From NCBI GenBank assembly GCA_036703985.1, contig DATNQN010000084.1, positions 1-64,000 of the forward strand: a stretch of 64,000 bases of DNA. The letters are read 5' to 3'. Below, piece by piece: positions 35,315 through 63,401 of the stretch. The notes beneath the pieces were generated by a model. It was given only the letters and a program-made list of their open reading frames with translations, was not told the origin of the DNA and made no database searches. The translations under genes and the position numbers were made by a program. This DNA comes from Leptolyngbyaceae cyanobacterium (GTDB lineage Bacteria > Cyanobacteriota > Cyanobacteriia > Cyanobacteriales > Aerosakkonemataceae). Position 1 is the first letter of the stretch. Every line of letters starts with the position of its first letter.

Positions 35315-35860
35315 ATGGCAGATTATTCAAGAGAACGCTGGCGGGTCTGCAAACGGTTTTTAGAAATGCGATCGAGTTGGCTTACTTTAATTGGAGAAAA
35401 TTTACAAGACGATCGGGGAGATATTTTAGAATACTGGCGGATAGAAAAATCAGACTCCGTGATAATTATCACCCTTCAAAAGAATCAATTAATTTTGCCA
35501 CAACCGATGTATCGTCCTGGAGTAGGAGAATTTACTTTTGATTTTCCAGGGGGTCGAGTTCCTGATGGTGAAAGTCCCTTAGCAGTTGTACCGCTTATTC
35601 TCAAACGAGAATTGGGAATTGAAGCAGATTCAATTGTGGAAATTACCCCCCTAAACACTAAAGGTTGGGCGGTGAATAGTTCTTTTTCTAATCAAAAACT
35701 ATTTGGTTTTTTCGTTCAGATAAAGCCGAGTTTGGTACTGTCACCTGAGTACGTGGGTGCAACTTATCCGGCAAATGATTCGGGAGTGGGAGATTTGCTG
35801 GAAGTTCTCACCTGTCTGCAATGTCGTGCTTTGTTGCTGGAATGGTGGGTGGGGAGATAG
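35315..35860 (+). CDS. NUDIX-fold protein with degenerate NUDIX box
   Basis: About 181 aa from ATG 35315 (MADYSRERW); a GTG at 35243 would add 24 residues. The middle shows a NUDIX fold: FDFPGGRVPDGESPLAV followed by VPLILKRELGIEADSI. Compared with G-x5-E-x7-R-E-U-x-E-E-x-G-U, the G, first E, last E and final G-I are present, but the R-E pair is L-I and the first Glu of the E-E pair is R. Most metal-binding glutamates are therefore lost, so hydrolysis is doubtful. It may be a binding or regulatory protein. It lies upstream of psbA on the same strand with a promoter between. Confidence 0.75.
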   Translation: MADYSRERWRVCKRFLEMRSSWLTLIGENLQDDRGDILEYWRIEKSDSVIIITLQKNQLILPQPMYRPGVGEFTFDFPGGRVPDGESPLAVVPLILKRELGIEADSIVEITPLNTKGWAVNSSFSNQKLFGFFVQIKPSLVLSPEYVGATYPANDSGVGDLLEVLTCLQCRALLLEWWVGR

Positions 35861-53842: not shown

Positions 53843-53999
53843 TATGACAGGATATCCTTGGCTGTTCAGCAAAAAGAAAGCTAACCTAAAATAAGCTACT
53901 TTTTCAGTTGCTCCGATCGGAAAGAACAAATATATCGGTGTACGGAACACGGTGACAATTTCGTGTTCTGGTTACCGTAATAATACGAGGACTACCATA

Positions 54000-56900
54000 A
54001 TGTTAGTACTTCCCGGATATCAACTTACTGAAGCAATTCATGAAGGGGCAAAAACAATCATCTATCGCGGCGTTAAACTACCTTCACAAACATCGGTAAT
54101 TATTAAAACTCTTCTGGAAGAGTACCCGACTTTGGAAGAAATATCCCGATTGCGGCATGAATATAAAATTATTTTACCACTAAACATATCAGGTATTGCC
54201 AAACCAATTGCTTTAGAAAATTATAAAAATGGTTTAGCACTGATATTAGAAGATTTTCGGGGAAACTCCCTCAAAAAATTAATTAGCACCCAAAAAATAT
54301 CTATACTTGCTTTTTTATCTATTGCTCGTCAGTTGGCAGAAACTCTCCACGAGTTACATCAAAATCAGATTATTCATAAAGATATTAAACCTCAAAATAT
54401 CCTGATCGATCCTCAAAACTGGCTCGTTAAACTGATCGACTTTAGTATCGCATCTCGCCTATCTAGAGAAACTCCTTCAATTAGCAATCCCGATTTACTA
54501 GAAGGTACTCTCATCTATATGTCGCCGGAACAAACCGGGCGGATGAATCGCTCTCTAGATTATCGCACTGATTTCTACTCTTTGGGGGTTACCTTTTACG
54601 AAATCCTGACAGGCGAACTGCCTTTTAATACCAATGACCCTCTGGAATTGGTACATTGCCATATTGCGAAAATACCTGTATCGCCCCATCAGGTTAATCC
54701 GGAGATCCCCCTAGCGATATCCGAAATAGTAATGAAATTAATGGCGAAAAATGCTGAGGATAGATATCAAAGCGCTTTGGGATTAAAAGCTGATATAGAA
54801 ACTTGTTTTAATCAACTAGTTTTGGGCGGTGAAATTAGTAACTTCGTACCCGGAGAGATGGATAAATCCGGCCAATTCCTGATTCCCCAAAAACTATATG
54901 GCAGGGAAGAAGAAGTTGCCAAACTATTAGAAACTTTTAATCGCGTTGCTACTGGTGCAACTGAAATGATGCTAGTTTCAGGCTATTCCGGGATTGGCAA
55001 AACTTCCGTAGTTAACGAAGTACATAAGCCGATTGTACGGCAACGCGGTTATTTCAGTTCTGGTAAATTCGACCAATTTAAGCGAAATATACCTTACTCA
55101 GCACTCATCCAAGCATTTTCTGAATTAATACGTCAGTTATTAACAGAAAGTAAAGAGAAAATAGAAGTTTGGAAAACAAAATTATTAAAAGCATTAGGAC
55201 AAAACGGACAAGTTATTATTGATGTAATTCCGGAAGTAGAATGGATCGTTGGCAAACAGCCAGAAGTAGTGCAATTGGGGCCAACCGAATCTCAAAATCG
55301 GTTCAATCGAGTATTTCAAAAGTTTATTGGCATATTTGCCCAAAAAGAACATCCATTAGTCTTATTTTTAGATGACTTGCAATGGGCGGATTCGGCTTCT
55401 TTAAAATTGATTGAATTGATAATGACCGATACAGCAAGCCAGTACTTATTGCTGATAGGAGCATATCGAGATAATGAAGTTAGTCCGACTCATGCCACGA
55501 TTCAAACCATAGAAAAAATTCAACAAACTGGAGCAGTTGTTAATAATATTATTCTAGAAGCTTTGAGCTTGGAAAATATTTTGACTTTAGTTAATGATAC
55601 TTTCGTTGAAACAGTTACATCCCCACATTTAAAGCAAGCGGAAAATACCGAATTAGCAAGGGTAAGACCTTTAGCTGAGTTAGTTTTTAACAAAACTCAG
55701 GGAAATCCTTTCTTTTTGACTACTTTATTGTCTACTTTGTATTCTGATAAGCTGCTAACCTTTGATTTTACCGAGGGGCGTTGGTTGTGGGATTTAGAGC
55801 AGATTCAAGCTCTCGGTATTACTGATTATAATGTGGTTGAATTAGTAGCTAGAAATATCCAAAAATTACCTGAAACTACGCAACAGGTTTTAAAATTAGC
55901 TGCTTGCATCGGTAATACGTTTAATTTAGATAATCTGGCAGTGGTGAACGAGCAATCTTTATTGACTACTGCCGATGAGTTGTGGGAAGCATTGCAAGCT
56001 GGGTTGATTTTGCCCCTTTCATCAGATTACAAAATTCCCTTATTTGTTGATGAATTAGAACAGAAGTATTTGCAGGATAAGGATTTAAGAGTAAGTTATA
56101 AATTTTTACATGACCGAGTACAGCAAGCTGCTTATTCTCTGATACCGGAATCGGAAAGAAAAGTCACTCATTTAAAAATCGGTCGATTGCTGTTACAAAA
56201 AACGGCTAAGTTTGCTTTGGCAGAAAACATATTTGATATTGTTAATCAGTTGAATATAGGAATAGAATTTATTACCAAAGAAGCAGAGCAAGAAGAATTG
56301 GCGAGATTAAACTTGATGGCTGGAAAAAAAGCTTTAGCTGCTACTGCTTATGATGCTGCCGCTAGGTATTTGAATGTGGGATTGCAATTACTTCCCCCAG
56401 ATGGCTGGGAAAGAAAGTATGAATTGACGCGAGACTTATTTGTAGAAACGGCATCTGCGGAGTATCTCAATATTAACTTCGATCGGGCCAAGCAATTGTC
56501 TGAGGTCGTATTAGAACGGGCAAAAACTTTGTTAGAGAAAGTCCCTGTTTACGAGACTCAAATTCAGTTTTACATAGCGCAAAATCAGATGCAAGCTGCG
56601 ATAGATACTGCACTTCCGGTCTTGAAATTACTAGGGGTTAGGCTGCCAGAAAAACCAACAACACTCGACATTTTATTAGGTTTAATTCGCACGAAGTTAG
56701 TATTATCAGGAAAACAGATTGAGAACTTAGCGAACCTTCCGGAAATGACTGATTCCTATAAGCTAGCAGCAATGGGGATATTGATGAATATTACTTCCCC
56801 TGTTTTTATGGCCAGACCAGCCATGTTCCCACTAATTATATTTGCTATGCTGAATTTAGGATTCAAATATGGCAATTGTTCATTTTCGGCTTTAGCATAT

Positions 56901-59564
56901 GTGATTTATGGTTTGTTGCTATGTGGAAGTCTAGGAGATATCGAATCGGGTTATCGATTTGGACAACTAGCATTGCAAATTCTCGAAAAATATGATGCCA
57001 AAAAACTAAAACCGATCGTATATGTAACATTTAATTCGGGAATCAGACAGTGGAAAGAGCCTGCAATCAAGTCAATTCAACCTTTTGTGGAAACAATTGC
57101 TGTTGGGCTAGAAGTAGGAGATATAGAATATGCTTGTCATCATGCTAGGTATTACTGTTCTTACCCTTACTTAACTGGAGAGCATCTAGAATCATTAGCA
57201 CAGAAACAAGCAAAATATATGAAAATGTTGGTAAATTTCCAACAGGAAATTCAAATAAATTATACGCAAATATGGAGCCAAGTAGTTTTAAACTTACTCG
57301 GCGTATCTAAAGATAAATACCGTTTAGTAGGAGAAATGTTTGATGAAGATGAAAAGCTACCGATTTTTAAAAATACTAATAATGTGGTGTGCCTGTTTCA
57401 TTTTTATTGTTTAAAGGCTGGTTTATTGTATCTTTTTAAAGAATATACGCGGTCTCTCGAACTAGCAAAATTAGCTGAAAAATATATAGAAGGTGGGTTT
57501 GCAGCTTTGCCTCTGACTGCACACAATCTTTACTATTCTTTGGCGCTACTAGCTTTGTGTTATAACAGTTCAAAGAGGCAAAAAAGAGTTTATCTGAAAA
57601 AGGTAATCTCGAATCAGAAAAAACTAAAAAAATGGGCATTTCATGCACCAGATAATTATCAGCATAAGTACGAGCTTGTAGAAGCAGAGAAGGCGCGAGT
57701 TTTAGGTGAAGAGATCAGAGCGATCGAATATTACCAACGTGCGATCGAAGGAGCTAAGAAACAAGGATACATTCAAGAAGAAGCGCTGGCAAATGAACTA
57801 GCAGCAGAGTTTCATTTTTCACAGGGCAGGGAGAAGGTTGGTCAAACTTATTTGACGGATGCTTATTACGGTTATGTTCGTTGGGGTGCTAAAGCAAAAG
57901 TAAAAGATTTAGAAGAAAGATATCCTCAGTTCTTCTCTCAAATACTAAAACGGGAACCAACTGACATAGATATTAATCGCACAACAACCTCTACCAGTAC
58001 CACGGGAGGTAGTGCATCTGCTTTGGATTTAGTCACGGTGACGAAGGCATCACAAGCGATTTCTTCAGAAATTGTTTTGGACAAGTTGCTTTCTAAGTTA
58101 ATGCAGATCACGATTGAGAATGTTGGTGCTTCTAAAGGTTATTTGTTGTTATCAAAATCTGGTAAGTTGGTGCTGGTAGCAGAGGGTGCTGTGGAAAAAA
58201 GTAAAGTGCGCGTACTGCCATCAGTTCCCGTTGAATCTCGTCCGGATTTACCATTATCGATTATTAATTACGTAGAAAGAAGCCAACAAACTATAGTCTT
58301 AAATAATTCAACAGTTGAGGGACTATTTACTAACGATCCTTACATCCTGAAAGCTCAACCGAAATCAATTTTTTGCTGGCCGCTTACTCATAAAGGAAAG
58401 TTTACTGGCGTCCTTTATTTAGAAAATAATTTGAGTGTGGGTGCTTTTACGTCAGCGCGGTTGTCTGTTTTAAAACTTTTAGCGGCACAAGCATCTATTT
58501 CTTTAGAGAATGCAAATCTTTACGAGGAGTTGCAAACTTACTCTCAACAACTGGAAGCGAAAAATCAAGAATTGGATAGTAAGAATGAGGCTTTGCAAAA
58601 GTCAGAAGCGCAGTTAAAAGAAAAGAATGAAGCTCTGGAAAAATATTTGCACAAGTTGCAACAAACGCAAGCTCAATTAGTGCAAACTGAAAAGATATCT
58701 AGTTTAGGACAACTGGTGGCGGGCGTAGCTCATGAGGTGAATAATCCAGTGAGTTTTATTAATGGCAATTTGCATCATGCTTCTGAGTACGTACAAGATT
58801 TGTTGAATATTTTGAATCTTTACCAGCATCATTTCCCCAATCCTCCAGCTGAGATTCAAGAAGAGATAGAAACAATAGAGCTGGAATACGTGAAGGAAGA
58901 CCTGCCTAAAATGCTTTCTTCGATGCAAGTTGGTACTGACAGGATTAGAGAAATTATGCAGTCGTTACGGAATTTCTCGCGGGTTGATGATGGGAGTGCT
59001 AAGTCAGTAAATATCCACGATGGGTTGGAAAGTACGTTGATGATTTTGCAACATCGTTTGAAAGCTAAGGGAGAATTAAAGGCGATTCGGGTGGTGAAGG
59101 AGTACGGTAATTTACGGAAAGTTGAGTGTTACGGTGGACAGTTAAATCAGGTGTTTATGAATATTTTGGCAAATGCTATTGATGCAATGGAAGAGGAAAG
59201 AGTTGTTAGCGAGAAGGAAATTAGGATTAGTACCAAACTAGAAAATAGGCCATTAATAATCGATGAGGAAGAGTCTAAATATTCATCAATTCCTAATACC
59301 CAATTTGTTATAATTCGGATTAAGGATAACGGCCCCGGTATGACGGAAGAAGTACGTTCTAAGTTATTCAATCCTTTCTTTACTACAAAACCCATAGGTA
59401 AAGGTACTGGTTTGGGTTTGTCGATTAGTTATCAAATTGTGGTGGAGAAACACGGAGGTAAAATTGAGTGTATTTCTGCACCGGGAGAGGGAACAGAGTT
59501 TGTAATTATGATTCCCATTGAGCAGAAAAAATTTCAGAAAGTGGCTTACTCTGAACTTGCCTAA
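54000..59564 (+). CDS. Dual Ser/Thr kinase-AAA-GAF-histidine kinase (HstK type)
   Basis: One 1854-aa signalling protein. Order: Ser/Thr kinase (about 1-265; SVIIKTL, HKDIKPQNILID, LIDFSIASRL with DFS for DFG), AAA-type ATPase (about 298-500; GYSGIGKTSVV P-loop, FLDDLQWADS), a long helical region (about 600-1330) that could hold TPR-like repeats, GAF (about 1340-1500), coiled coil (about 1510-1565), HisKA with VAHEVNNPVSFINGN and HATPase (DNGPGM, GTGLGLSI). It belongs to the dual-specificity kinases of filamentous cyanobacteria. No response regulator gene is adjacent. ATG 54000 has GAGGA nine bases upstream; a GTG 16 codons earlier is unlikely. Confidence 0.95.
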   Translation: MLVLPGYQLTEAIHEGAKTIIYRGVKLPSQTSVIIKTLLEEYPTLEEISRLRHEYKIILPLNISGIAKPIALENYKNGLALILEDFRGNSLKKLISTQKISILAFLSIARQLAETLHELHQNQIIHKDIKPQNILIDPQNWLVKLIDFSIASRLSRETPSISNPDLLEGTLIYMSPEQTGRMNRSLDYRTDFYSLGVTFYEILTGELPFNTNDPLELVHCHIAKIPVSPHQVNPEIPLAISEIVMKLMAKNAEDRYQSALGLKADIETCFNQLVLGGEISNFVPGEMDKSGQFLIPQKLYGREEEVAKLLETFNRVATGATEMMLVSGYSGIGKTSVVNEVHKPIVRQRGYFSSGKFDQFKRNIPYSALIQAFSELIRQLLTESKEKIEVWKTKLLKALGQNGQVIIDVIPEVEWIVGKQPEVVQLGPTESQNRFNRVFQKFIGIFAQKEHPLVLFLDDLQWADSASLKLIELIMTDTASQYLLLIGAYRDNEVSPTHATIQTIEKIQQTGAVVNNIILEALSLENILTLVNDTFVETVTSPHLKQAENTELARVRPLAELVFNKTQGNPFFLTTLLSTLYSDKLLTFDFTEGRWLWDLEQIQALGITDYNVVELVARNIQKLPETTQQVLKLAACIGNTFNLDNLAVVNEQSLLTTADELWEALQAGLILPLSSDYKIPLFVDELEQKYLQDKDLRVSYKFLHDRVQQAAYSLIPESERKVTHLKIGRLLLQKTAKFALAENIFDIVNQLNIGIEFITKEAEQEELARLNLMAGKKALAATAYDAAARYLNVGLQLLPPDGWERKYELTRDLFVETASAEYLNINFDRAKQLSEVVLERAKTLLEKVPVYETQIQFYIAQNQMQAAIDTALPVLKLLGVRLPEKPTTLDILLGLIRTKLVLSGKQIENLANLPEMTDSYKLAAMGILMNITSPVFMARPAMFPLIIFAMLNLGFKYGNCSFSALAYVIYGLLLCGSLGDIESGYRFGQLALQILEKYDAKKLKPIVYVTFNSGIRQWKEPAIKSIQPFVETIAVGLEVGDIEYACHHARYYCSYPYLTGEHLESLAQKQAKYMKMLVNFQQEIQINYTQIWSQVVLNLLGVSKDKYRLVGEMFDEDEKLPIFKNTNNVVCLFHFYCLKAGLLYLFKEYTRSLELAKLAEKYIEGGFAALPLTAHNLYYSLALLALCYNSSKRQKRVYLKKVISNQKKLKKWAFHAPDNYQHKYELVEAEKARVLGEEIRAIEYYQRAIEGAKKQGYIQEEALANELAAEFHFSQGREKVGQTYLTDAYYGYVRWGAKAKVKDLEERYPQFFSQILKREPTDIDINRTTTSTSTTGGSASALDLVTVTKASQAISSEIVLDKLLSKLMQITIENVGASKGYLLLSKSGKLVLVAEGAVEKSKVRVLPSVPVESRPDLPLSIINYVERSQQTIVLNNSTVEGLFTNDPYILKAQPKSIFCWPLTHKGKFTGVLYLENNLSVGAFTSARLSVLKLLAAQASISLENANLYEELQTYSQQLEAKNQELDSKNEALQKSEAQLKEKNEALEKYLHKLQQTQAQLVQTEKISSLGQLVAGVAHEVNNPVSFINGNLHHASEYVQDLLNILNLYQHHFPNPPAEIQEEIETIELEYVKEDLPKMLSSMQVGTDRIREIMQSLRNFSRVDDGSAKSVNIHDGLESTLMILQHRLKAKGELKAIRVVKEYGNLRKVECYGGQLNQVFMNILANAIDAMEEERVVSEKEIRISTKLENRPLIIDEEESKYSSIPNTQFVIIRIKDNGPGMTEEVRSKLFNPFFTTKPIGKGTGLGLSISYQIVVEKHGGKIECISAPGEGTEFVIMIPIEQKKFQKVAYSELA

Positions 59565-59588: not shown

Positions 59589-60968
59589 TTATAAGGCGGC
59601 TAGTGCTTTCTGATGCAGTACAGGATGCCTATCCTTGACAATCAGATGCAGGTTGTCTGAAGGGGCGAGGGTGGGGCCACGGCGTACAGGCTTGATGGAG
59701 TGTCCGGATGCTAAATCCAAGTCTAAGTTACGCAAGAGCGTAGCCAGTACTAACTTCATTTGAAACTGAGCAAATGCCATCCCAATACAACTACGATTAC
59801 CACCGCCAAAAGGAAAATATTCGTATGGTGAAAATTGCCTTTCTAAGAAGCGCTCTGGCTGAAAATGCTTCGGTTCTGGGTACAAATCTTCTCTTTGGTG
59901 AGTCAAATAAATGCAGGGAACTAACACAGTACCCGGATTGAATTGAAAATCCCCAATCTGTAATGGGGAATTTAAAATGCGACTTGGGGTAGCTAAACCT
60001 ACTGGATAGATCCGTAGTGTTTCAGAAACTACCGCAGTAAGATAGGGAAGTCGAGCGATCGCACTTAGGTCAGCATCAGCATCTATAGTGCCAATTTCAT
60101 CAAGAAGTTTGCTCTTAACTTCTGGCAGATAGTGAATCCAGTACAATGCCCAAGCTAGTGCGGTTGCTGTAGTTTCATGACCCGTGAACAATAGCGTGAG
60201 GAGTTGATCTCGTAATTCGGCATCGGTCAAAGGTTGACCTGTTTCATCTACAGTCATTAGTAATAAGGTAAGAATGTCGGTACGTTCTTCTTCAATTGGC
60301 TGCTGCCGTCGCTCTTCTATTTCGTCAATCAGCAATTGGATTATTTGCTTACGCAAGCGCACAAATTGCCCCCACGGACTCCAAGCGCCCAAGTCCTGGC
60401 GCATGGCAGGAAAAAAAAGCTGTGCAGCATTTAAAGGAGAACTTATTGAGTCTACGAAGGTGCTAAGTAGTTCTCGAAGGAGGTCGTATCGTTGTCCCTG
60501 ATTTATGCCAAAAATAGCTTGCAGGATTACGCGCAGGGTAATTTCTTGCATTGATGAACGGACTGGAAAAGCTTTACCAATTGTCCACCCACTCAATACT
60601 TGTTGGGCGATTTTGCTGATGAGTTGGCTGTAAGCCCGCATTCGTTCGCCATGAAAAGGGGGCAGGAGAAGTCGTCGCAAGCGTTGATGGCTTTGCCCAT
60701 CAAGCACTCCTAGAGATTGTTCTCCTAAAAGCGGTTCTAAAAGGGGCTTGCTACCACGACCAACATCAAACAAATTTCGATCGGCTGTAAAAATTTCTTC
60801 GATCGCTTGCGGGTGACTTAAGTACACTACTGGAGAATCCGTATTCCTTCCTATAGTGAAAGCATCACCGTAGCGCTTTTGCCGTGCTTCTAAGTATTCT
60901 ATGGGTCGGAGAACAAACTGAAGTGTCTCTAACCAAACTGGAGCCTGGGGGCCATCAGGGAGTTTCAA
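59589..60968 (-). CDS. Cytochrome P450 (CYP110-like)
   Basis: A 459-aa soluble P450. The heme-Cys motif FPFGGGNRSCIG, the ExxR helix (ETLRIYP) and the I-helix LFTGHETTATALAW are intact. The opening MKLPDGPQAPVWLETLQ, without a membrane anchor, is typical of the CYP110 family of cyanobacteria, whose members oxidise fatty acids, alkanes or terpenes. It reads towards the kinase gene, with 24 bases between stops. It is divergent from a UbiA prenyltransferase gene about 400 bases away, which suggests but does not prove a shared pathway. Confidence 0.95.
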   Translation of the reverse strand: MKLPDGPQAPVWLETLQFVLRPIEYLEARQKRYGDAFTIGRNTDSPVVYLSHPQAIEEIFTADRNLFDVGRGSKPLLEPLLGEQSLGVLDGQSHQRLRRLLLPPFHGERMRAYSQLISKIAQQVLSGWTIGKAFPVRSSMQEITLRVILQAIFGINQGQRYDLLRELLSTFVDSISSPLNAAQLFFPAMRQDLGAWSPWGQFVRLRKQIIQLLIDEIEERRQQPIEEERTDILTLLLMTVDETGQPLTDAELRDQLLTLLFTGHETTATALAWALYWIHYLPEVKSKLLDEIGTIDADADLSAIARLPYLTAVVSETLRIYPVGLATPSRILNSPLQIGDFQFNPGTVLVPCIYLTHQREDLYPEPKHFQPERFLERQFSPYEYFPFGGGNRSCIGMAFAQFQMKLVLATLLRNLDLDLASGHSIKPVRRGPTLAPSDNLHLIVKDRHPVLHQKALAAL

Positions 60969-61383
60969 GGGTTTTTTTTCCTTTTTATGTAAAAGTTGAT
61001 GCTGAGGAGATATTATCTCTTGAGTTTGGCTTTAGCGATCGACTTCGCACATTTTGGGCAGCCGCAAAATAGTTCACGAGCTTCTTATTTAACTGAAATC
61101 CTTATTAATTCAAGGTTTACGACGATTAAGCTAATAAAGCTGCGATCGGTTTTTCCCGTACTTGGTAAAAATTGATATTAGAAAAAGTTATTATATTTTT
61201 TTATTAAGTTAATGTATTCAAATAACATTAGAGTACAGTAAATCTACTAAATGGCAGATTTACTGATATGATTGACCATGTTCAGTGACACAAATCACCG
61301 ACAAATAAAGATTAACAGAATAATCATCCTACGGCTTCAGTTAGTTGATGGGAAAATTCTGGTTTACAGGGTGTGAAGAAAAA
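60969..61383. promoter_or_regulatory. Divergent promoter region between P450 and UbiA genes
   Basis: No gene is seen. AT-rich stretches around 61190-61260 would suit promoters. The 415 bases are long enough to carry divergent promoters for both genes. No operator motif could be recognised. Confidence 0.4.
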
Positions 61384-62298
61384 ATGTCAGTACAAGCAAA
61401 AGTGTTATCAACCGTTAGGGCTTTAATTGCAAAAATCTACCGAAGCCTCCGACATGAAGCGTGGCTGAGTTGGCAATTCATCGGCGGCGATATTTCAGCA
61501 TCGATGATACCTGGGTTACTATTTATGATGGCGGCGTGGAAAACTCATCCGACTAATGTGCTTGACTTATTGCTTGTACTGGCACGCGGCATTGTTTACT
61601 TTTGGCTGTATATCATGCCGTTTTGCATATCGAACCAAATAGTTGGTATTGATGAAGATCGGATTAATAAACCCCATCGTCCACTGGTGAAAGGTGATGT
61701 TTCACCTCTAGGTGCAAAGGTGCGATTGGCTGTGACGATGGTGTTGTTTGGATTGGTGGGATGGTGGTTTGGTGTTTTAGAGTGGGCGCTGCTTTGGCAA
61801 GGTTGTATTATTCTGCACAATTTAGGTAGTGGTTCTAAGCACTGGATTACCAAGAATCTGTTCATAGGAGTAGGTACTCTTGCTCTACTTGCAGCGGCTT
61901 GGCAATTGGTAACGCCGATTACATCGATCGCTTGGCAGTGGATCTTGGTGGTAGCTGGTGTGTGGCTATTTTTAGCGGCTATTCAGGATCTGCGGGATAT
62001 TGATGGCGATCGCGCAATTGGCAGAAACACTTTCCCGATCGCTTTTGGAGAAACTGCAAGTCGAGTGGTGTTAAGTTCCGGCTTTGCACTTTTACCTTTG
62101 GTGACTCATTTCGGATTGATGATGCCAGCAGGTTTAACCGAAAATGTGATATTGTGCGATGTTTTTTTGGCAGTTTTGAGTTTAACGATCGCGGTACGAG
62201 TGATTTCTTGCCGCTTCCCAAAAGCCGATCATTATAGTTATATGTTATTCACCTATTGGTTTTGTTCGGTACTCGGTTGTGCGATCGCGATTATTTAA
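61384..62298 (+). CDS. UbiA-type prenyltransferase
   Basis: A 304-aa membrane protein with about eight membrane segments. The two Asp-rich motifs of the UbiA superfamily are present: NQIVGIDEDRINKPHRPL (motif 1) and QDLRDIDGDRAIGRNTFPI (motif 2), which bind prenyl diphosphate through Mg2+. It should prenylate an acceptor or, as some UbiA relatives, cyclise a prenyl chain. It is shorter and different in detail from ubiquinone or chlorophyll synthases, so its acceptor is open. Start ATG 61384 (MSVQAKVL) preferred over TTG 61345 and ATG 61348. It faces the P450 gene divergently. Confidence 0.88.
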   Translation: MSVQAKVLSTVRALIAKIYRSLRHEAWLSWQFIGGDISASMIPGLLFMMAAWKTHPTNVLDLLLVLARGIVYFWLYIMPFCISNQIVGIDEDRINKPHRPLVKGDVSPLGAKVRLAVTMVLFGLVGWWFGVLEWALLWQGCIILHNLGSGSKHWITKNLFIGVGTLALLAAAWQLVTPITSIAWQWILVVAGVWLFLAAIQDLRDIDGDRAIGRNTFPIAFGETASRVVLSSGFALLPLVTHFGLMMPAGLTENVILCDVFLAVLSLTIAVRVISCRFPKADHYSYMLFTYWFCSVLGCAIAII

Positions 62299-62537
62299 AA
62301 TATTTGGTCGTTTTCACTCCACGTTCAGCGGTATTCTTATATATATATAGATAGTTCTAGTTAAACTACGCAAATACGCAAATTCTGTCCGACTCGGATG
62401 GATATTGAAACAGAAGCCTATATTTTGCTACTCTGCTTTCCCGCAAACCGCTATCCTTGATGTTAATCTCGACACATGGGGCAATTTCCTAGCGTTAATT
62501 GTCCTACGGCGCTAAAAATATTAGGGATGGCTGTATA

Positions 62538-63401
62538 TTGAATTTTAAAATCGAAAACCTTACGTCCGAGCAAGTAGTTGCGATCGGTGCGATCCGTAAC
62601 AAGTGGAGATCGATCGCTCTTTCCACCGAGAGGATCGATCGTCAAAAAGCAGCTTTAGCGATCGAAGCTGTTTACCGCGAAATCGGTCTTCCGGAACCGA
62701 AAATACAATTTTTTGATAGCCCCTATGCCGTTTTGCAAAAACCTCCCTCCTTACTGGGGAGTTTTCTGGGGAGTTTGTTGAGGGGCAAAATCGAGAAGCA
62801 ACTGGAAATTCCACCGGGTAGCCAATTGGGAAGTCTGGTAGAGAATAATTTGGAAATGGAAGCGATCGATCCGCTGAAAAGATATCTCTGGACTCCTCTG
62901 ACAAAACAACTGGGAGTTCAACTCGGTAATTCTTTATGGAAGCAACTGAGAAACCAACTGACTAGTCAAAATGATAACTGCATACAACCAGAATTATGGG
63001 CAGTTTATGCTAGTGCATTTGATTATTGTATTTCAGTTTTAAACTGCGAATACTCGCCCGACAAGTGGGAAGTACTTCAATCTGTCGCTAGAGAATGCGG
63101 TTGGATTTTCCCGTGGAAGAAAACTTGCTTTGTTTGCGATCGACCATCAAAACTCAGCTTTGATAACGAAAGACGCCTTCATGCAGAAGGGACGCCAGCA
63201 ATTGAGTTCACAGACGGATTTAGCGTGTATGCCTATCATGGTGTAGTCATACCCGAAAAATATGGCGCGATATCACCCCAAAAATGGGAAGCGCAGTGGA
63301 TTTTAGAAGAGAAAGACCCGGAACTGAAACAAGTGTTAGTTTACGGAATTGGGATGCTAAGAATTCGTCGAGAATTAGGAAATATTGAAATAGATTTTTA
63401 A
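62538..63401 (+). CDS. DUF6745-like protein
   Basis: A 287-aa protein. The C-terminal part RRLHAEGTPAIEFTDGFSVY and AYHGVVIPEKYG resembles DUF6745, a family of unknown role often seen beside leucine-rich or WGR-type repeats. The middle LLGSFLGSLLRGKIEKQLEI and QLGVQLGNSLWKQLRNQL are repetitive Leu/Gln segments. I place the start at TTG 62538, with AGGGA 11 bases upstream; a TTG at 62499 is an alternative, and no ATG lies in frame before the conserved region. It is convergent with the sirtuin gene. Confidence 0.75.
   Translation: MNFKIENLTSEQVVAIGAIRNKWRSIALSTERIDRQKAALAIEAVYREIGLPEPKIQFFDSPYAVLQKPPSLLGSFLGSLLRGKIEKQLEIPPGSQLGSLVENNLEMEAIDPLKRYLWTPLTKQLGVQLGNSLWKQLRNQLTSQNDNCIQPELWAVYASAFDYCISVLNCEYSPDKWEVLQSVARECGWIFPWKKTCFVCDRPSKLSFDNERRLHAEGTPAIEFTDGFSVYAYHGVVIPEKYGAISPQKWEAQWILEEKDPELKQVLVYGIGMLRIRRELGNIEIDF

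Follow-up and report, generated by a model that had tools for sequence, protein, structure and literature searches.

A UbiA-family gene with terpene synthase-type motifs beside a cytochrome P450 and a giant kinase: a candidate terpene minicluster in a cyanobacterium

The DNA studied here is a stretch of 64,000 nucleotides, which we refer to as the window, and it carries a divergent pair of genes. The first of these, at 59589..60968 on the minus strand, encodes a cytochrome P450 of 459 amino acids (PF00067, E 7.7e-78), which belongs to a multi-copy cyanobacterial group and is a proposed terpene oxidase. The gene is read from a TTG start at 60968 with an AAGGA-like site upstream, and the protein has the P450 marks ETLR (316), PERF (371), and the heme-binding motif FGGGNRSCIG (387; encoded at 59781..59810, minus strand). 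Its closest relatives are multi-copy P450s of other cyanobacteria, which are 41-70% identical; membership of the CYP110 family requires more than 40% identity to a named CYP110, and the label CYP110-like, given in an earlier reading, is used here as a provisional one. The second gene, at 61384..62298 on the plus strand, encodes an integral membrane protein of the UbiA superfamily (304 amino acids), which is a proposed UbiA-type terpene cyclase and matches PF01040 with 88.8 bits (cut-off 34.2; E 4.5e-25). Its ATG start at 61384 is in register with the starts of its homologues, and an alternative upstream TTG at 61345 would give a protein of 317 amino acids. Given the TTG start at 60968 and the ATG start at 61384, the two genes diverge from a shared upstream region of 415 bp (60969..61383; 33% G+C), just as an earlier, sequence-only reading of this DNA had described. 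Convergent with the P450 gene is a plus-strand gene (53952..59564) for an 1870-amino-acid protein with the order Ser/Thr kinase, AAA, GAF, and histidine kinase, which we propose as a regulatory third member of the locus. A gene for a DUF6745 protein (62499..63401, plus strand) follows the UbiA gene; its membership is doubtful, as all four copies from the window's own family have it after UbiA, but the two copies from Nostoc have no such neighbor.

The window's UbiA protein reached no NCBIfam cut-off: all 13 matches listed were far below, the best of them scoring 43 of 269 bits. The nearest curated family is the prenyltransferase PRK12884, at 43 bits. Elsewhere in the same genome there are six other UbiA proteins, each of which is named by NCBIfam over its cut-off, as heme O synthase, UbiA (4-hydroxybenzoate prenyltransferase), homogentisate phytyltransferase (HPT), ChlG, MenA, and decaprenyl-phosphate phosphoribosyltransferase, respectively. 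In a phylogenetic tree, the window protein and nine homologues formed one group (100/99) that was separate from these six paralogues, whose branches are long. The earlier statement that the protein is no obvious match to the chlorophyll, heme, or quinone prenyltransferases was therefore upheld, and the phylogeny that it had called for gave no grouping with ChlG, HPT, or MenA.

The window protein departs from the prenyltransferases in the first of the two Asp-rich motifs. Motif I of the window protein reads NQIVGIDED (N84..G88..D92; 61633..61659, plus strand), that is, NxxxGxxxD as opposed to the NDxxDxxxD of prenyltransferases, with Gly (G88) in place of their middle Asp. Motif II reads QDLRDIDGD (Q201-D209; 61984..62010, plus strand) and has the form QDxxDxxxD, as Q201-D202-LR-D205-IDG-D209. 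The sequence-only reading had credited the protein with both Asp-rich motifs, which is correct for motif II but has to be amended for motif I. The middle residue of motif I is Asp in five of the six paralogues of the window genome (MenA lies outside the pattern), as well as in all six comparators from related genomes. The window protein lacks both the middle Asp and the curated cut-off score by which the housekeeping UbiA prenyltransferases are recognized. It conforms instead, in both motifs, to the pattern NXXX(G/A)XXXD plus QDXXDXXXD, which is given for the UbiA-type terpene synthases Fma-TC, EriG, and Tps1A in the relevant passages of PMC9835599. The same passages list D100, D215, D218, and D222 as essential residues of Tps1A, and by motif position these correspond to D92, D202, D205, and D209 of the window protein. 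A tyrosine, Y155, is also reported there as essential in Tps1A, with Y139 as its counterpart in AfUbiA; we found no such Tyr 45-65 residues past motif I in six cyanobacterial proteins (a position taken as an offset from motif I and not from a structure alignment), and the passages on Y155 and Y139 do not name this Tyr as family-defining. Motif I bears most of the weight in this comparison, because the string xDxxDxxxD is also found, without the Gln, in the archaeal prenyltransferase MjDGGGPS (KDFEDMEGD) and in HPT (KDIPDLEGD).

The PF01040 match and the multi-helix membrane fold place the protein in the UbiA superfamily. An AlphaFold2 model (five sequences) had a mean pLDDT of 68.5 and a pTM of 0.62, and its top matches in the PDB were UbiA-fold enzymes, the first being MjDGGGPS (6m31) with a TM of about 0.63. 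The profile of the protein also matched 6m31 with an E of 1.9e-11, which makes MjDGGGPS the top match among solved structures by both sequence and fold. MjDGGGPS, which transfers a prenyl chain to a glycerol lipid acceptor, is, however, an archaeal lipid prenyltransferase whose motif I (NDIFDIEID) has the usual Asp. As the mean pLDDT of the model is 68.5, and the pLDDT falls below 50 at residues 200-223, motif II included, the model was left out of any consideration of active-site geometry; it confirms, as a prediction, the UbiA fold only.

Homologues of the UbiA protein are rare. A profile scan of 388 genomes of the class returned the window's own copy as the sole match at E<=1e-15, and a scan of relatives (n=60) gave three strong matches (94, 75, and 74%), each from a genome assigned to the window's own family. 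A contig scan found four homologue loci, in Argonema antarcticum (74%), Nostoc sp. 106C and T09 (63%), and Chitinophaga tropicalis (33%); a match was present in two of the 244 genomes scanned from the family of the Chitinophaga genome. Two further homologues are plasmid-borne and adjoin a polyprenyl synthetase gene, one from Streptomyces sp. YIM 121038 (32%) and one, near idi, from Bacillus subtilis (25%). All 10 proteins compared keep NxxxGxxxD. QDxxDxxxD is kept in eight (the cyanobacterial proteins, including that of the window, and those of the Chitinophaga family), and reads EDxxDxxxD in the Streptomyces and Bacillus plasmid homologues. The C. tropicalis homologue has two PF19086 class I terpene synthases as neighbors, of which one is encoded on the opposite strand (L021:7983-11190); near the other homologue from the Chitinophaga family (G432), no terpene synthase was evident when the ORF list was read by eye. 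The Streptomyces plasmid is linear (968 kb) and carries its UbiA homologue within a terpene island, in which a P450, a polyprenyl diphosphate synthase, a terpene synthase, transposases, the polyprenyl synthetase, and the UbiA homologue follow one another (L028:667-15849). On the 53-kb B. subtilis plasmid (CP123774.1; L029:12001-17422), the UbiA homologue with NxxxGxxxD lies by polyprenyl synthetase, idi, and FAD monooxygenase genes, a set that may constitute a plasmid-borne terpene pathway.

Products listed in the passages of PMC9835599 are beta-trans-bergamotene for Fma-TC, cyathadiene for EriG, and alpha-bisabolene for Tps1A and Tps2A. By the published motifs, the window protein resembles these fungal enzymes in NxxxGxxxD and QDxxDxxxD, and also in having a P450 in its cluster, since the fungal P450 Tps1H is described there as oxidizing the terpene product. 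It differs from them in its bacterial host, in its length of 304 amino acids, and in lacking the Y155-like Tyr. A bacterial example is StlTC, a UbiA-type diterpene cyclase of Streptomyces that makes lydicene, according to a section of the review PMC10301674. Like StlTC, the window protein is bacterial and, by our proposal, a UbiA-type cyclase, and the Streptomyces plasmid homologue falls in the window protein's group, although its motif II starts with E and not Q; the window protein is from another phylum, and no prenyl diphosphate synthase gene adjoins the window genes.

We then considered the neighbors. In all six cyanobacterial UbiA copies examined, the gene adjoins a P450 gene, which in turn adjoins a giant Ser/Thr-histidine kinase gene. 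G000, G002, G003, and G007, all of the window's family, share the arrangement kinase > < P450 UbiA > DUF6745 >, with outer flanks that differ among G000, G002, and the G003/G007 pair; both genomes from Nostoc have UbiA > P450 > < kinase instead. Common to both lineages are the tail-to-tail P450/kinase pair and the position of UbiA, which is always on the 5' side of the P450. The UbiA-P450 pair is thus kept in six cyanobacterial genomes, as the sequence-only reading had required, while its description of a two-gene pathway proved too narrow: the pair is real, but the large kinase/histidine kinase is a third conserved member. About 1.5 kb past the conserved block in G002 (L022:2301-6609) there are genes for a 125-amino-acid protein ending in CC, with a leader resembling that of a nitrile-hydratase-type RiPP precursor, a 562-amino-acid FAD-type protein, and a 748-amino-acid protein, possibly a RiPP cluster. 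DUF6745-like proteins that are 45-46% identical to that of the window are encoded within a few genes of like kinases at two other loci (L150 and L168), which may be a second recurrent association.

The P450 had 70 matches across 18 genomes, and neighbors were counted for 68 of them (two on G008:C277 were left out, and three of the 68 had one neighbor visible). Six of the 68 adjoin a UbiA gene of this kind; the same six, and no others, adjoin a full-length kinase gene, and a shorter kinase part lies next to one more P450. The six UbiA-linked copies represent two lineages and not six independent events. In a P450 tree (n=69, built without L120 and with two P450s beside class I synthases added), a separate clade (100/100) unites the four P450s of the window type. 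Those linked to UbiA in Nostoc are placed elsewhere, as sister (99/81) to a P450 of G328 (L191) encoded next to a class I terpene synthase. Such UbiA proteins have therefore been paired with P450s of this kind at least twice, or one partner has been replaced in place. In a quick kinase tree, the four window-type kinases likewise form one clade, and the Nostoc kinase lies in another, eight-row clade (SH-aLRT 100), together with both kinases found beside class I synthases and five kinases without an adjoining terpene synthase. Of the two beside class I synthases, that of G161 is intact and 65% identical to the Nostoc UbiA-linked kinase, and that of G374 is a fragment, 75% identical. We considered whether the entire block is simply orthologous in the window's family and in Nostoc and rejected this, as it fails for the P450 and for the kinase, each of which falls into two clades; plain orthology is confined to the UbiA protein (63%).

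This neighborhood has a published parallel. Passages of PMC4558948 describe a three-gene cyanobacterial cluster of a sesquiterpene synthase, a P450, and a hybrid two-component protein, along with a variant that has an FAD oxidoreductase, and in the part of PMC3411444 concerned with CYP110C1, this P450, encoded next to the germacrene A synthase NS1, is reported to hydroxylate germacrene A. The window locus looks like such a minicluster in that adjacent genes encode a terpene-forming enzyme (by our proposal), a P450 of the multi-copy group, and a large hybrid kinase. It differs in that no PF19086 match was found in the window genome, and the putative cyclase, in place of a class I sesquiterpene synthase, is a UbiA membrane protein. 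A PF19086 scan of the 388 genomes of the class gave matches in 20 genomes, and among these, we compared the synthase of G161 with three like it (from G328, G239, and G374; 45-53% identical). In G161, the synthase is accompanied by an FAD amine oxidase and a convergent kinase, corresponding to the FAD-type variant of the minicluster; in G328, it is followed by a P450; and in G239, it is divergent from a P450, in the same geometry as in the window. The G374 synthase is broken and lies next to the kinase fragment. A synthase, a P450, and a full-length kinase occurred together at none of these four loci, and for that arrangement we rely on the description in PMC4558948. The G374 locus appears to be a decayed terpene minicluster, with a 179-amino-acid synthase fragment that has an in-frame stop and overlaps the end of the kinase fragment (L194:8980-11474). 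As for the kinase family as a general marker of terpene loci, we rejected this idea, since none of the 40 regions around the top kinase matches (20 from each of two class scans) had, by BLAST, a terpene synthase beside the kinase, despite its presence in a 41st, that of G161 (L122).

An alignment of the shared upstream region from the four family copies showed that little is conserved between the two sub-lineages, apart from a block near UbiA. This block contains a palindrome, AGTAAATCT-N10-AGATTTACT (61237..61264), which is a proposed operator, lies 110-119 bp 5' of the UbiA start, and has zero or one mismatch in all four copies. Across 12 genomes, it was found with zero or one mismatch at these four loci only, all other matches having two mismatches, and a search upstream of the Nostoc UbiA genes did not find it. 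A second site, GTGA-N6-TCAC, is shared by all four copies at 76-85 bp upstream of the UbiA start; in the window it reads GTGACACAAATCAC (61285..61298), which we take to resemble a CRP-type site. Since the window contains two occurrences of GTGA-N6-TCAC against 0.54 expected, what argues for this site is its conservation and spacing. The other occurrence, GTGATAATTATCAC at 35459-35472, is far from the UbiA/P450 locus. Taken together, the conserved palindrome and the GTGA-N6-TCAC block suggest local control, and we regard both as putative sites.

Based on these observations, we think it most likely that the UbiA protein ionizes and cyclizes a prenyl diphosphate and that the P450 oxidizes the resulting hydrocarbon. 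In the proposed mechanism, the UbiA protein would take up a linear substrate within the membrane, farnesyl or geranylgeranyl diphosphate, and coordinate Mg2+ through D92 and D202/D205/D209; pyrophosphate would be released and the cation cyclized to a hydrocarbon, which the adjacent P450 would hydroxylate or otherwise oxidize, while the neighboring kinase/histidine kinase may sense conditions and control the locus. The sequence-only reading had left the product as a meroterpenoid or a terpene, and the terpene is the better supported of the two, given the motifs of UbiA-type synthases and a neighborhood like that of the sesquiterpene minicluster.

The main rival is a prenyltransferase of specialized metabolism, which would prenylate an aromatic compound or another small acceptor, leaving the P450 to oxidize a meroterpenoid. 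The UbiA fold in general is consistent with this, as are the nearest curated and solved families, both of which are prenyltransferases (PRK12884 and 6m31). We nevertheless consider it unlikely, because the Asp-to-Gly change in motif I is common to all 10 proteins compared, the neighborhood is that of a terpene-hydrocarbon minicluster, and no acceptor-making enzyme (PKS, or a chorismate/shikimate branch enzyme) was seen by the six cyanobacterial copies when their ORF listings were read by eye. A diverged housekeeping enzyme, acting on a tocopherol, quinone, chlorophyll, or heme side chain and located next to a P450 by chance, is far less probable still and was already disfavored. Motif I of the window protein is close to that of HPT (NQLEDIAID), the change of D to G aside, but we rejected a housekeeping role because six housekeeping-type UbiA proteins are encoded by separate genes elsewhere in the genome, all over their cut-offs. 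In addition, the presence of the gene is patchy, with a strong match in three of nine other genomes of the family, and the adjacency recurs with two clades of P450.

The UbiA protein could also be a terpene cyclase, with the P450 or kinase retained next to it through linkage, as a bystander. Such P450s are numerous, as are such kinases (48 first-look candidates in the window genome), and the window-type and Nostoc-type kinases are in different clades, all of which would suit a bystander. On the other hand, a P450 and a kinase are present at all six places even though the clades of both differ by lineage, which fits re-assembly and not simple linkage, and we judge a bystander role improbable.

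If the UbiA protein is indeed a terpene cyclase, the locus has a wider meaning. We tentatively suggest, as a reading with somewhat less than an even chance of being right, that the UbiA-type terpene synthases, known from fungi and Streptomyces, are a bacterial family spread across Cyanobacteria, Bacteroidota, Actinomycetota, and Bacillota, and that in cyanobacteria they have replaced the class I synthase of the minicluster at least twice, in a natural exchange of cyclases. The pathway had been called undescribed; this has to be qualified, in that the kind of enzyme and the kind of cluster are both published, but we recognized no paper joining UbiA-type terpene synthases with cyanobacteria in a search that covered open-licence papers (subscription papers and preprints were outside its scope). 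Because PF19086, which is used to mine bacterial genomes for terpene synthases, misses the UbiA-related diterpene synthases, as noted in a passage of PMC10055836, such loci are overlooked and tend to be annotated as prenyltransferases. The UbiA-type cyclases would be extended to the cyanobacteria, in the form of a small three-gene system that could be expressed and assayed directly. Were the exchange of cyclases also true, an unrelated fold would supply P450s of one type, controlled by one type of kinase, and the locus would be a case of two unrelated cyclase folds swapped within one regulatory and oxidative setting.
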